This document shows positions 41,378 to 62,889 of a DNA stretch of 64,000 bases, piece after piece (within the stretch, counting starts at the first letter, position 1; each line of letters starts with the position of its first letter). The stretch covers positions 124,001 to 188,000 of the forward strand of contig JAPPIK010000024.1 in NCBI GenBank assembly GCA_028820655.1, written 5' to 3'. Both the position numbers and the translations under genes were made by a program. The notes under the pieces were generated by a model. That model saw only the letters and a list, made by a program, of their open reading frames with translations, made no database searches and was not told where the DNA came from. This stretch comes from Candidatus Poribacteria bacterium (GTDB lineage: Bacteria > Poribacteria > WGA-4E > JAJDTR01).

Positions 41378-41855
41378 GGTATAACTCCTTTTCAGGTGTT
41401 CGATTGTAGTTTTGGAAGTCCCGTTAAATCCGAGCATCGATATTGCCGGACTTCTGCACTAAAGAGATCAATACTACGGTGCGCAATATGGTGACTAGCT
41501 CCCACCGTCACATGAATAAACAGAAAATACCATGCATACGACGTTCTGTCAAGAAGTATCGGCTTTAGATGGGAATTGTGCGTGTGTGGCTGTTGCAGAG
41601 ACCTAAACTGCCAGTCTAGCGGGGTTCAGTTTCAAGGTGTATGGAAGGACAGAGTTGCCACGTACCAAAGCCAAGCATGGAATTAAGCGCGTGAGTAGTG
41701 AGAGCGGTAGAGTTTCCGAGTCGCTTATCAAACGTGTAATGGGCAGATGCTGCACGTACGGTTAAACAAGGGGAAAAACTTCACGACCATTTCACCACCT
41801 TCATCAGCCAAACCCAACGGTTAGCGCAATTTGCTTGAACCAAACTAAACTGGTT
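41378..41855. other. Non-coding stretch before the Rpn cassettes
   Basis: No gene. A sequence at about 41730-41775 has a weak likeness to group II intron domain V (see findings). Confidence 0.5.
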
Positions 41856-42092
41856 CTAGTTTTCCAATTCTATCTCATCTAGTACCTTTGCGGTTACCGC
41901 TTGCTCAAGGAGTGAATCAAGATGGGACAGACTCTATATCAAGGAAATTATGCCGGCAACTGATTCAGGAACGGTATGGAATCGGAGTTGCAGAACTTTG
42001 AGAACATCAGCCTGTTTCTCCTGAATTTTCCCTTGTTCAATTCCCTGTGCTTTGCCCTGTTCGATGAGATGCTCAGCCATCGTCGGTGCCAT
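41856..42092 (-). pseudogene. Orphan RpnS-like cassette with an in-frame stop
   Basis: From the ATG at 42092 (GAGGT upstream) the frame reads MAPTMAEHLIEQGKAQGIEQ, then GKIQEKQADVLKVLQLRF, and hits TAG at 41934-41936. Reading on in the same frame gives HLDSLLEQAVTAKVLDEIEL and a stop at 41856, which aligns with the end of the full Rpn protein. It is thus a third copy of the C-terminal region, more diverged than the next one, broken by one nonsense codon. The 52-residue product could still be made. Confidence 0.7.
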
Positions 42093-42189
42093 AAGTCTAC
42101 CTCTTCTCTAGCTGGGTCGCAGACGGTGTTGGACATAGATCGTGCCCCAAAGGCCTCCGCTAAGGCGGCGTGGTAACAATGGCAGCTTC
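42093..42189 (-). repeat. 97-bp spacer repeat between Rpn cassettes, copy 1
   Basis: Nearly identical to 42496-42592 and related to 61710-61806, all exactly 97 bases from stop to next ATG. It includes the hairpin-like GCCTCCGCTAAGGCGGC, so it may act as terminator or processing site, and the ribosome site of the following cassette. Confidence 0.75.
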
Positions 42190-42495
42190 CTAACCATCAA
42201 AATCCGTTGAGTCAATCTCATCAAGCGTGTTTGCGGTGAGCACTCTTTCCAAGAGCGCATCAAGGCAAGGGAGACTCCGTATTGAGTTAATCTCTTCGGC
42301 AAGGGAATCGGGAACAGCATCAAATCGATGTCGCAGTATTTTGAGAACATCAGCTTGTTTCGCCTTAATCTCACCATGCTCGATACCTTGCGCTTTACCT
42401 TGTTCAATGCCCTGGGCTTTCCCCTGTTCAATACCCTGTTGAATTCCCTGAGCTTTGCCCTGTTCGATGAGATGCTCAGCCATTGTCTGTACCAT
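42190..42495 (-). CDS. Stand-alone RpnS-like C-terminal cassette
   Basis: 101 residues, MVQTMAEHLIEQGKAQGIQQ at the start and LERVLTANTLDEIDSTDFDG at the end. It is almost the same as residues 276-368 of the full Rpn protein next to it, with one more AQGIEQGK-type repeat. It has its own ATG and a GAGGT Shine-Dalgarno at 42502-42506. RpnS proteins are short C-terminal products made from inside rpn genes that block the toxic nuclease; here the same segment exists as a separate gene. A role as extra antitoxin, or as a recombination donor for the gene's 3' end, is inferred. Confidence 0.75.
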   Translation of the reverse strand: MVQTMAEHLIEQGKAQGIQQGIEQGKAQGIEQGKAQGIEHGEIKAKQADVLKILRHRFDAVPDSLAEEINSIRSLPCLDALLERVLTANTLDEIDSTDFDG

Positions 42496-42592
42496 AAGTC
42501 TACCTCTTTTCTAGCTGGGTCGCAGACGGTGTTGGACATAGATCGTGCCCCAAAGGCCTCCGCAAAGGCGGCGTGGTAACGATGGCAGCTTC
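42496..42592 (-). repeat. 97-bp spacer repeat between Rpn cassettes, copy 2
   Basis: It joins the full Rpn gene to the stand-alone cassette and differs from copy 1 by only a few bases. GCCTCCGCAAAGGCGGC hairpin in the middle. Confidence 0.75.
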
Positions 42593-42874
42593 CTAACCAT
42601 CAAAATCCGTTGAGTCAATCTCATCAAGCGTGTTTGCGGTGAGCACTCTTTCCAAGAGCGCATCAAGGCAAGGGAGACTCCGTATTGAGTTAATCTCTTC
42701 GGCAAGGGAATCGGGAACAGCATCAAATCGATGTCGCAGTATTTTGAGAACATCAGCCTGTTTCGCCTTAATCTCACCTTGTTCAATGCCTTGGGCTTTC
42801 CCCTGTTCAATGCCCTGTTGAATTCCCTGAGCTTTGCCCTGTTCGATGAGATGCTCAGCCATTGTCTGTGCCAT
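42593..42874 (-). CDS. Nested in-frame RpnS-like product, locus 1
   Basis: 93 residues from the internal ATG at 42874, same frame as the full gene. The site upstream (GAGGAGGT with seven bases to the ATG) is far stronger than that of the full gene. It starts MAQTMAEHLIEQGKAQGIQQ. By analogy with RpnS, it should bind and inhibit the nuclease. Translation itself is not shown by sequence. Confidence 0.65.
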   Translation of the reverse strand: MAQTMAEHLIEQGKAQGIQQGIEQGKAQGIEQGEIKAKQADVLKILRHRFDAVPDSLAEEINSIRSLPCLDALLERVLTANTLDEIDSTDFDG

Positions 42875-43699
42875 GAGTTCTACCTCCTCTCTGTCTGATG
42901 CTTCTTGAACGTGCTGTCCAAGAAGATGGGCCAATTCCGGATGTTCTTCAGCCGGACGGCGATGCAGGATTAACAGCAGCAAATAGGAAATTGCCCGCCA
43001 CCTCTGCTGCGTACTCGCTTCATCGAGGGTGTTGATATGAGACAGTGCTTCAATCAATGCCTCGCTGAGAGCTTCCACAGTTCCATGCTCCTTCTGAAGC
43101 ACGGTCAATAACCACCCGAGTGGATGGTCGGTTTTGGTTAATTCCGATTCGTCTGTATCCTTTACGCCTAAAAACAGCGTGTCAAATTTGGGGACAAACC
43201 GAGAGAGTACATCGGGGACCTCCATTATCGCATCAAGGGTCAGCGGGGTAGTCCATTTCTGCTCGCCCGTGTAGAACACGATGGGCAAAATCGGACGGAA
43301 ACGCCACTGGCCTTTGGGAACAGATTGTGATTCCCACTCTCGCCGCTGGGAATCCCAAATCTGGGTCATGTAAAACAGTACTCGAAACCCCATTGTCGGG
43401 TCAACGGTAGATTGATGTTCGATGAGAATATAAATCAGTAGTTCATCAGTATCGGATTCGCTCTGAAACGGCACGCTGAATACAATATCAGATTCTTGCT
43501 CCCTCAGGTTATCGGGAACAAAACTTCTGTTGAGTTGTACGATCTGACTAAAATCGATTAAATTCACCAATTCGCCTTCGACAATCTCAATCAATCCACG
43601 GACGTTCTCTCTATCTTGAAATAGCCATCGGGCGCTGCGGTCGGAAAATTGTTCAATCCGAGCGTCAAAAAGATTGCGAATCTCTGATTCTTTTGACAT
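42593..43699 (-). CDS. Rpn-family PD-(D/E)XK nuclease, full length, locus 1
   Basis: 368 residues. The N-terminal part (about 1-260) is the Rpn/transposase_31 nuclease domain: D71 (ESDIVF) and E94-x-Q96 (YILIEHQSTVD) fit the D...E-x-Q core of PD-(D/E)XK enzymes, followed by WRFRPILPIVFYTGEQKW. The C-terminal part (276-368) has repeats of AQGIEQGK type and a small helical domain ending FDG. Rpn proteins are DNA nucleases linked to phage defence and kept in check by a C-terminal product made from an internal start. Such a start, with GAGGAGGT, is seen at 42874. No clear Shine-Dalgarno precedes the first ATG. Confidence 0.85.
   Translation of the reverse strand: MSKESEIRNLFDARIEQFSDRSARWLFQDRENVRGLIEIVEGELVNLIDFSQIVQLNRSFVPDNLREQESDIVFSVPFQSESDTDELLIYILIEHQSTVDPTMGFRVLFYMTQIWDSQRREWESQSVPKGQWRFRPILPIVFYTGEQKWTTPLTLDAIMEVPDVLSRFVPKFDTLFLGVKDTDESELTKTDHPLGWLLTVLQKEHGTVEALSEALIEALSHINTLDEASTQQRWRAISYLLLLILHRRPAEEHPELAHLLGQHVQEASDREEVELMAQTMAEHLIEQGKAQGIQQGIEQGKAQGIEQGEIKAKQADVLKILRHRFDAVPDSLAEEINSIRSLPCLDALLERVLTANTLDEIDSTDFDG
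42882..42889 (-). promoter_or_regulatory. Internal Shine-Dalgarno in the Rpn gene, locus 1
   Basis: GAGGAGGT on the minus strand, seven bases before the internal ATG at 42874. It encodes Glu-Val within the long frame, so it could be kept either for protein or for initiation. Confidence 0.65.
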
Positions 43700-43740
43700 A
43701 GTCCATTAGATTTGCAAAGGGATGTCGATTAGCCGTCATT

Positions 43741-61251: not shown

Positions 61252-61709
61252 TTAGTTGCCGTGATTGAGTAGGTCAATCTCATCAAGTGTCTCCGGGGTC
61301 ACCGCCTTCTCAAAGAGCTCATCAAGGCGAGGGAGTTCCCGTATTGAATCAATCTCTTCGGCAAGGGATTCGGGGACGGCATCAAATCGAAGCCGCAGGA
61401 CTTTTAGAATACTGGCCTGTTTCGCTTCGATTCTCCCTAATTCAATGCCTTCTTCAATAGCCAGTTTCAAAACTAGATGTACAGCTCGTTGATTTCCCTG
61501 TTCTATACTCAGCATCGGTTAATGTTGCGCAATTGTGCGCCGAAGGTTTGTAGGAGCGATCTCCGAATCGCGACGGTCGGGAATCGGTGGGAACTCCTCC
61601 TACCACCTGCAAAACCCACGCTCTATTTCTTGACACTTAAAAGCGCAACATTCAACAGTGTAGAATATATGCCTTTTTCAATGAGATGCTCAGCCATTGT
61701 CTGTGCCAT
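61252..61709 (-). pseudogene. Broken stand-alone RpnS-like cassette, locus 2
   Basis: The cassette begins at the ATG at 61709 (MAQTMAEHLIEKG), then leaves the family pattern and stops after 28 residues. The expected body resumes at 61515 to 61252 with IELGRIEAKQASILKVLRLR and LFEKAVTPETLDEIDLLNHG. Between the two parts lies about 140 bases with an inverted GTCGCGATT-class REP at 61550. The simplest reading is insertion of repeat DNA into a third-type cassette. The second part has a possible start at 61515 and may be expressed as an 87-residue protein. Confidence 0.65.
61550..61574 (-). repeat. REP-like palindrome inside a broken cassette
   Basis: GTAGGAGCGATCTCCGAATC then GCGAC; GTCGCGATT class, inverted. 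Confidence 0.75.
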
Positions 61710-61806
61710 AGGTCTACCTCTTCTCTAGCTGGGCTGCCGGCCGTGTTGGTTGTGGATCGTGCCCCAAAGGCCTCCGCAAAGGCGGCGTGGTAAGAATGGC
61801 AGCTTC
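61710..61806 (-). repeat. 97-bp spacer repeat between Rpn cassettes, locus 2
   Basis: Same length and position as the spacers at 42093 and 42496, with more differences in its first third. GCCTCCGCAAAGGCGGC hairpin kept. Confidence 0.75.
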
Positions 61807-62064
61807 CTAACCATCAAATTCCTTTAAGTCAATCTCATCAAGCGTGTTTGCAGTGAGCACTCTTTCCAAGAGCGCATCAAGGCGGGGGAGACTCCGTATT
61901 GAGTTAATCTCGCCGGAAAGGGATGCGGGAACAGTATCAAATCGATGTCGCAGTATTTTGAGAACATCAGCCTGTTTCGCCTTAATCTCGCCTTGTTCGA
62001 TACCTTGCGCTTTACCTTGTTCAATGCCCTGTTCGATGAGATGCTCAGCCATTGTCTGTGCCAT
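61807..62064 (-). CDS. Nested in-frame RpnS-like product, locus 2
   Basis: 85 residues from the internal ATG at 62064, with GGAGGT seven bases upstream (62072-62077 on the plus strand reads ACCTCC). It starts MAQTMAEHLIEQGIEQGKAQ. The same site exists at locus 1, which argues that it is kept. Confidence 0.62.
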   Translation of the reverse strand: MAQTMAEHLIEQGIEQGKAQGIEQGEIKAKQADVLKILRHRFDTVPASLSGEINSIRSLPRLDALLERVLTANTLDEIDLKEFDG

Positions 62065-62889
62065 GAGTTCTACCTCCACTCTGTCTGATGCTTCTTGGAC
62101 GTGCTGCCCAAGAAGACGGGTCAATTCCGGATGTTCTTCAAACGGACGGCGATGCAGGATTAACAGCAGCAAATAGGAAATTGCCCGCCGCCTCTGCTGT
62201 GCGCTCGCTTCATCAAGGGTGTTGATATGCGACAATGCTTCAATCAATGCTTCGCTGAGCGCTTCTACAGTTGCTTGCTCTTTCTGAAGTACGGTTAACA
62301 ACCACCCGAGTGGATGGTCGAATTTGGTTAATTCCGATTCGTCTGTATCCTTTACGCCTAGAAACAGCGTGTCAAATTTGGGGACAAACCGAGAGAGTAC
62401 ATCGGGGATATCCATTATCGCATCAAGGGTCAGCGGGGTAGTCCATCTCTGCTCGCCCGTATAGAACACGATTGGCAAAATCGGACGGAAACGCCACTGA
62501 CCTTTGGGAACAGACTGCGATTCCCACTCTCGCCGCTGGGAATCCCAAATCTGGGTCATGTAAAACAGTACTCGAAACCCCATTGTCGGGTCAACGGTAG
62601 ATTGATGTTCGATGAGAATATAAATCAGTAGTTCATCAGTATCGGATTCGCTCTGAAACGGCACCCTGAACACAATATCAGATTCTTGCTCCCTCAGGTT
62701 GTCGGGAACAAAACTTCTGTTGAGTTGTACGATTTGACTAAAATCGATTAAATCCACCAATTCGCCTTCGACAATCTCAATCAATCCACGGACGTTCTCT
62801 CTGTCTTGGAATAGCCATCGGGCGCTGCGGTCGGAAAATTGTTCAATCCGAGCGTCGAAAAAATTGCGAATCTCTGATTCTTCTGGCAT
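61807..62889 (-). CDS. Rpn-family PD-(D/E)XK nuclease, full length, locus 2
   Basis: 360 residues, closely similar to the protein at 42593 over its whole length (same ESDIVF and YILIEHQSTVD core, D71 and E94-x-Q96). The main difference is in the C-terminal repeat: fewer AQGIEQGK-type units, and small changes in the last domain (PASLSGEINSIRSLPRLDAL, LDEIDLKEFDG). So two nuclease genes about 19 kb apart vary mostly in repeat number at the 3' end. GGGGAACG precedes the ATG. Defence or recombination-linked function is inferred from the family. Confidence 0.85.
   Translation of the reverse strand: MPEESEIRNFFDARIEQFSDRSARWLFQDRENVRGLIEIVEGELVDLIDFSQIVQLNRSFVPDNLREQESDIVFRVPFQSESDTDELLIYILIEHQSTVDPTMGFRVLFYMTQIWDSQRREWESQSVPKGQWRFRPILPIVFYTGEQRWTTPLTLDAIMDIPDVLSRFVPKFDTLFLGVKDTDESELTKFDHPLGWLLTVLQKEQATVEALSEALIEALSHINTLDEASAQQRRRAISYLLLLILHRRPFEEHPELTRLLGQHVQEASDRVEVELMAQTMAEHLIEQGIEQGKAQGIEQGEIKAKQADVLKILRHRFDTVPASLSGEINSIRSLPRLDALLERVLTANTLDEIDLKEFDG
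62072..62077 (-). promoter_or_regulatory. Internal Shine-Dalgarno in the Rpn gene, locus 2
   Basis: GGAGGT on the minus strand at the right distance from the internal ATG at 62064. One base differs from locus 1 further upstream (GTGGAGG versus GAGGAGG). Confidence 0.6.

Follow-up and report, generated by a model that had tools for sequence, protein, structure and literature searches.

Why should a gene for a putative Rpn nuclease be followed, after a short spacer, by a second and much smaller reading frame, and what has broken that smaller frame in two? The question arises in a 64,000-nt stretch of contig JAPPIK010000024.1 from a Candidatus Poribacteria genome (assembly GCA_028820655.1; hereafter the window, numbered from its first base), in which two such loci occur. 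A sequence-only reading of the window had described the second of them as a full gene, a spacer and a cassette that was split by an inverted REP. The features of both loci, as we now see them, are collected in Table 1.

Table 1. Features of the two rpn loci in the window and of the element inserted at locus 2.
Feature	Positions	Strand	Basis or remark
rpn2 (locus 2), RpnL toxin-like gene (Transposase_31 / PD-(D/E)XK nuclease, 360 aa)	61807..62889	-	PF04754, TIGR01784, conserved residues
Intragenic rpnS of rpn2	61807..62064	-	Internal ATG at 62064, SD-like ggagg immediately 5'
Spacer, 97 bp	61710..61806	-	Homologous to both locus 1 spacers; ends with the copy's SD-like sequence gagaagaggtagacct
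Stand-alone rpnS copy, 5' part, 14 codons	61668..61709	-	Sequence comparison
TA target duplication, start side (final two bases of the 5' part)	61668..61669		Flank comparison
MITE splitting the rpnS copy, 162 bp	61506..61667	-	Inverted ends, TA flanks, multiple genomic copies
TA target duplication, body side	61504..61505		Flank comparison
Stand-alone rpnS copy, 3' part (body), open to stop	61252..61503	-	Orthologous to L040 2768-3025
rpn1 (locus 1), 368 aa, close paralogue of rpn2	42593..43699	-	Sequence comparison, PF04754 search
Locus 1 cassette 1, intact stand-alone rpnS, 101 aa, +8 aa in repeat helix	42190..42495	-	Sequence comparison
Locus 1 cassette 2, older stand-alone rpnS/tail type, one in-frame TAG	41856..42092	-	Sequence comparison

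The gene itself lies exactly where the sequence-only reading had drawn it. The product of rpn2 satisfies the curated cut-offs of both Rpn / YhgA-like profiles, namely PF04754 (Transposase_31; E 3.5e-27, 95.8 bits against a cut-off of 21) and, just above its threshold, TIGR01784 (the Rpn family model; 52.7 bits against 52.1). Residues D20, D71, E94, Q96 and R106 are kept in 90-92 of 92 aligned poribacterial rows (90 loci plus rpn1 and rpn2, the latter two being in twice) and are identical in E. coli RpnE, which was aligned with them. By spacing rather than by alignment, they correspond to D11, D63, E82, Q84 and R94 of RpnA, mutants of which are reported in the text of PMC5350276. The rpn2-type tail resembles DUF4351 (PF14261) at 16.1-21.2 bits, under the Pfam cut-off of 25. 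Sequence searches of the PDB gave no match with rpn2 and no significant match with a profile of the tail, and with E. coli ypaA they found RpnA-S (7th0) at E 3.4e-4.

According to the text of Zhong et al. (PMC10327210), the C-terminal domain of Rpn genes is also translated alone, from an internal start, to give the antitoxin RpnS. The internal ATG of the poribacterial genes bears the expected mark: an SD-like core precedes it in 74 of 77 scorable rpn genes, compared with 15 of the 381 remaining in-frame ATGs inside these genes, and the three genes that lack the core in the tested interval have AGGAGG slightly farther upstream. Our best explanation, which taken as a whole we hold to be probable, is that rpn2 is a toxin-antitoxin gene of the Rpn kind, with RpnL, the full protein, as the nuclease toxin and its C-terminal part as the antitoxin RpnS; that RpnL would be toxic here, and RpnS would neutralise it, we infer from the published work on E. 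coli.

Behind rpn2, both the 97-bp spacer, equal in length to that of locus 1 (42496-42592), and the cassette start at 61709 (MAQTMAEHLIEKG) are where they had been placed, and an SD-like core lies before this original start. The two pieces of the cassette, 42 and 252 nt long, share a reading phase. Its body, the frame from 61252, matches the Rpn tails at E 3e-22 (rpn2's own tail) and 1e-24 (rpn1's tail), which settles the doubt that the sequence-only reading had raised against itself, that this frame might not be homologous to the cassette body at all. Amino-acid identity is 61% to the tail of rpn2 and 62% to that of rpn1 and to locus 1 cassette 1, so that a third sequence type was a fair description; among the tails compared, the nearest relative is the cassette of the orthologue in the congener G001 (83% nt). 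By homology to the Rpn tail, by its own start and by its place behind an rpn gene, we identify the cassette as the RpnS antitoxin domain in stand-alone form. The shared layout and the split were thus correctly seen, and it was the identity of the cassette that had gone unrecognised.

What was repeated is more than the coding sequence. A similar region surrounds both ATGs, ggaggtagaactc in the gene and agaggtagacct in the cassette, and across Poribacteria an SD-like core stands in the tested interval before the ATG of 14 of 20 stand-alone copies, the six without it including the unsplit copy of G001 (L040). Since the core occurs both at the internal start and at these copy starts, the repeated unit is, as judged from these motifs, 'ribosome site + rpnS', the site having decayed in some copies. 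The spacers belong to the same history: the three 97-bp spacers of the window form one homologous set, with 100, 97 and 87% identity when each is measured against the first spacer of locus 1 (87% for the locus 2 spacer). A spacer that is a genome-wide mobile repeat is ruled out by there being only three matches at E <= 0.001 across the 5.88-Mb genome.

The DNA that splits the cassette at locus 2 proved to be something other than the inverted REP that had been named. A REP element is a short palindrome that stands alone and measures a few tens of base pairs, whereas the insert, 162 bp long, has imperfect inverted repeats at its ends and defined ends common to many copies, which rules out the insertion of a bare REP. 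Scoring 40 of 251 candidate matches in this genome gave at least nine other near-full-length copies, and eight copies in G001 span positions 1-162 exactly. TA stands on both sides of 7 of the 10 near-full-length copies in this genome, the locus 2 copy included, and is absent from one side of three (L013, L015 and L017). At the orthologous site in G001, the insert is lacking and the copy is unsplit. By its ends, flanks and multiplicity, the locus 2 insert is a MITE; with its TA target duplications, we take it to be of the Tc1/mariner-IS630 type. Its DNA folds somewhat better than shuffled sequences (z -2.1; 5 of 200 shuffles were equally good). Only the central 27 bp of the element correspond to the dispersed REP-like core; that stretch (61548-61574, GTCGCGATTCGGAGATCGCTCCTACAA or close to it) recurs by itself at many places in the genome.

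As it stands, the frame from 61709 stops after 28 residues. The body had been described as running from 61252 to 61515, and the frame is real; the cassette proper, though, resumes at 61505/61503, and the MITE end contains the ATG at 61515. One might argue that the MITE did not kill the copy and that the 87-aa ORF that starts at this ATG, open and with no stop in its body, is a functional, shortened RpnS. We consider this improbable, as its start is supplied by the MITE end with no SD-like sequence before it, the conserved start of helix 1 is missing, and what lies upstream is the 28-residue stub. Most likely, the spare copy at locus 2 is dead and would yield that stub instead of a useful antitoxin.

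The layout is older than the break. The syntenic locus in G001 (L040; flanks 86.6% and 85.8%) has a gene followed by an unsplit copy, an intact relative of the kind that the sequence-only reading had suggested seeking in other genomes, with a spacer of 172 bp that cannot be aligned with the 97-bp one. Between the window and G001, the cassette bodies differ by a dS of 0.33 and the gene N-parts by 0.42, as expected if the copy preceded the parting of the species (the dN/dS of the orthologous cassette bodies, 0.49 with an interval of 0.22-1.09, is not clearly below 1). These comparisons support a locus 2 layout that predates the species split and the derivation of both cassettes from one ancestral copy. 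Locus 1 is probably a later copy, as it is missing from the syntenic place in G001 (about 2.1 kb, 41631-43740, against ~250 bp between matching flanks) and is closer to locus 2 (91.6% DNA identity from start codon to cassette start, the homology starting at the start codon) than locus 2 is to its orthologue (83.7%). Given this identity and the 87% of the spacers, the gene-spacer-cassette layout would most simply be older than the separation of loci 1 and 2, in agreement with the claim that it existed before the copies parted, and the 97-bp spacer common to both loci would be older than the copying of locus 1. At locus 1, 97 bp follow rpn1 and again separate the two cassettes, the first of which is a near-identical, recent duplicate (body 100% aa).

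How common are such copies? A class search matched 71 of 82 genomes. We examined 93 rpn gene loci with their downstream DNA, drawn from the best matches and so biased to the closest relatives of rpn2, some of them from one genome. After four of 21 flagged loci had been set aside (L088 and L129, where the gene is broken early and the match is its own tail; L114, a run of N; L064, a 22-aa fragment), 17 of the 93 carry stand-alone copies, 20 in all and up to three in tandem. The copy is thus dispensable, the other 76 loci having no accepted full-length copy. The frame is uninterrupted in 17 of the 20 and broken in locus 2 (by the MITE) and in locus 1 cassette 2 and L041 (by stops). In L046 (G020), the first of three tandem rpnS has lost its stop and runs on into the second as one double-antitoxin frame; in the downstream copies of L055 and L072 the first helix is long and of another build (GFVxGYxxTIAESxAK), and is absent from their gene tails. 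A structural model of locus 1 cassette 1 (mean pLDDT 73) has a helix at 4-57, then 63-71, 75-87 and two short helices. Foldseek with this model gave a best E of 3.2, and the best VIA match was a GA module (Z 7.5, a middling score where small bundles of helices are concerned); neither listing of matches included 7th0, the three-helix bundle of RpnA-S.

The copies differ from their genes in a feature that should matter for neutralisation. Repeat-helix lengths, their control, dN/dS and tail identities were all taken from tails with a strict anchor, which 72 of 89 gene tails have (17 were left out). The helix differs in length between gene tail and neighbouring copy in 19 of 20 cases, and for 18 of them the difference is a multiple of four residues. 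For RpnC, Zhong et al. (PMC10327210) report in their text that neutralisation is lost when a single 4-aa repeat is added, from which many copies are predicted not to neutralise their neighbour. In E. coli, all 13 copy-bearing loci sampled (from K-12 and from 12 strains picked out of 60 rows) likewise differ in repeat length from the gene, in 10 distinct pairs. Ordinary gene-gene pairs differ about as often, however: 23 of 27 at 0.85-0.95 tail identity, 51 of 64 at 0.75-0.85 and 1 of 2 at >=0.95, compared with 7/7, 3/4 and 2/2 gene-copy pairs in the same three classes. We do not, then, claim selection for a mismatch, which may be plain hypervariability, 19 of 20 being hardly above 23 of 27.

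Gene tails and the rest of their genes are in places out of step. For L003/L041, dS is 0.35 (0.25-0.48) in the N-part and 1.34 (0.70-2.70) in the tail, and the DNA past the last copy aligns directly (83% over 500 bp); for L001/L040, the values are 0.42 (0.31-0.56) and 0.95 (0.52-1.90), with intervals that just overlap. Control pairs, also compared over 56 tail codons each, show no such excess in the tail (L047/L048, 0.30 in the N-part vs 0.29 in the tail; L001/L002, 0.16 vs 0.08). At L093 (G044 C21), the N-part is 87-91% identical to the L094 clade, the gene tail is 90% identical to L071 of another clade and 57-62% to L094-clade tails, and the downstream copy is of its own clade's type (93% to the copy of L123); the simplest reading is that the gene tail was replaced and that the old tail type now lies downstream. 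The copyless L059 shares the downstream flank of L056 (95%) and has a tail nearer the copy of L056 (0.963) than its gene tail (0.920), with a helix length of 25 that matches neither the gene (33) nor the copy (21). Six copyless tails compared in the L094 clade are, on average, only 0.01-0.02 nearer copies than gene tails. Of 5426 E. coli genomes, 5363 have a ypaA-type tail and 3101 the rpnE-type tail of K-12, and in the one copyless strain fetched (L160) the ypaA-type tail is the gene's own end; whether a new tail was gained or one deleted is a direction that we do not claim, because it cannot be read from these counts. Together with the fusion mentioned in the text of Zhong et al. (PMC10327210), the out-of-step tails of L093, L056/L059, L003/L041 and E. 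coli rpnE make it likely that gene tails have been exchanged with downstream copies.

In the model that we propose, a stand-alone rpnS arises by repetition of 'ribosome site + RpnS' behind the gene. Because the repeated stretch would bring a start and, initially at least, a ribosome site of its own, each copy would be a complete small gene from the outset. The copies would be sibling antitoxins, usually unlike the neighbouring toxin in helix-repeat length, and might persist mainly by keeping or providing an alternative tail, their role in tail exchange being our own reading. The direct repeats at the internal start could then recombine and give the gene a new tail, so that toxin and antitoxin change together, and the former tail could stay downstream. 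At locus 2, the MITE with its TA duplications would have split the copy afterwards. Tentatively, then, the copies may be displaced or spare tails in a system that switches in one step, in which recombination at the duplicated internal start supplies the toxin with a new tail and the matching antitoxin, the former tail remaining as an orphan antitoxin of the old specificity; we put this forward as a possibility that is short of an even chance.

Two other readings compete with tail switching. The copies could be plain debris of tandem duplication, produced by illegitimate recombination at a repeat-rich tail and now functionless and decaying; this is possible, if doubtful. It would suit their absence from most loci examined, the recent origin of locus 1 cassette 1, the three broken copies and the six with no SD-like core. 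It sits less well with the 17 uninterrupted frames, with a copy kept at the orthologous place in two species, and with pooled gene-copy dN/dS values of 0.24 (0.15-0.36; 7 pairs) and 0.27 (0.19-0.38; 9 pairs), lower than the 0.5 or more expected with one neutral partner, with the proviso that, if tails were exchanged, part of this constraint arose while the sequences served as gene tails. Alternatively, a copy could provide an extra dose of cognate antitoxin and raise the RpnS:RpnL ratio for the neighbouring toxin, as the own SD-like core of 14 copies and the reported production of the E. coli ypaA protein (text of PMC10327210) would allow. This we think unlikely, given the RpnC result and a repeat length unlike that of the neighbouring gene in 19/20 poribacterial and 13/13 sampled E. 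coli copies. On the reading of the copies as spare tails, arrays of two or three would be a record of past specificities. The reason for the copies' existence also becomes testable: a copy whose repeat length is unlike its neighbour's is predicted not to neutralise it, and changes of gene tails to the type of the downstream copy are expected. Locus 2 is ordinary in kind, and the tail-switching suggestion is its more interesting part.

The arrangement of a gene with a downstream rpnS is already known, ypaA beside rpnE in E. coli being published, and is here extended to Poribacteria. The text of Zhong et al. (PMC10327210) gives downstream rpnS copies for rpnE (ypaA) and, in some strains, for rpnC; it also says that the ypaA product was detected and that DUF4351 genes occur elsewhere, and it mentions loss through deletion or fusion. 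Among open-licence papers, our literature search on RpnS/DUF4351 and on Rpn with Poribacteria found only this one to treat stand-alone RpnS. K-12 rpnE has an internal aaaaggagagatta-ATG, and ypaA opens with the identical letters 12 nt past the rpnE stop. RefSeq lists K-12 ypaA (L147 5905-7002, with rpnE) as a pseudogene and RpnE as inactive, though Zhong et al. report in their text that they detected the ypaA product; the copy is flagged as a pseudogene in 11 of 12 other copy-bearing E. coli strains fetched. The poribacterial loci share with rpnE-ypaA a PF04754 nuclease with conserved catalytic residues, an internal SD-like site and start, a C-terminal helix with 4-aa repeats, and a downstream tail copy preceded by a copy of the internal site. 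They differ in the spacer (97 bp here, 12 nt in K-12), in the MITE that splits the locus 2 copy and, as set against the E. coli text, in having up to three tandem copies in another poribacterium (L046), although that paper's supplement may show tandems.

The MITE, for its part, is like known TA-duplicating MITEs in being short and non-coding, with inverted ends, TA flanks and many copies, and unlike them in carrying a palindromic core that is also dispersed on its own in the genome. A broader parallel is offered by Rhs and CDI toxins, whose orphan tips and orphan immunity genes are displaced or spare C-terminal modules that lie behind the gene and could recombine into it. We claim no homology to these systems and, to our knowledge, Rpn proteins, unlike Rhs and CDI toxins, are not known to be secreted. 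The likeness is that a spare C-terminal module behind the gene could recombine into it; the difference is that, in the rpn loci, the module is toxin tail and antitoxin at once.
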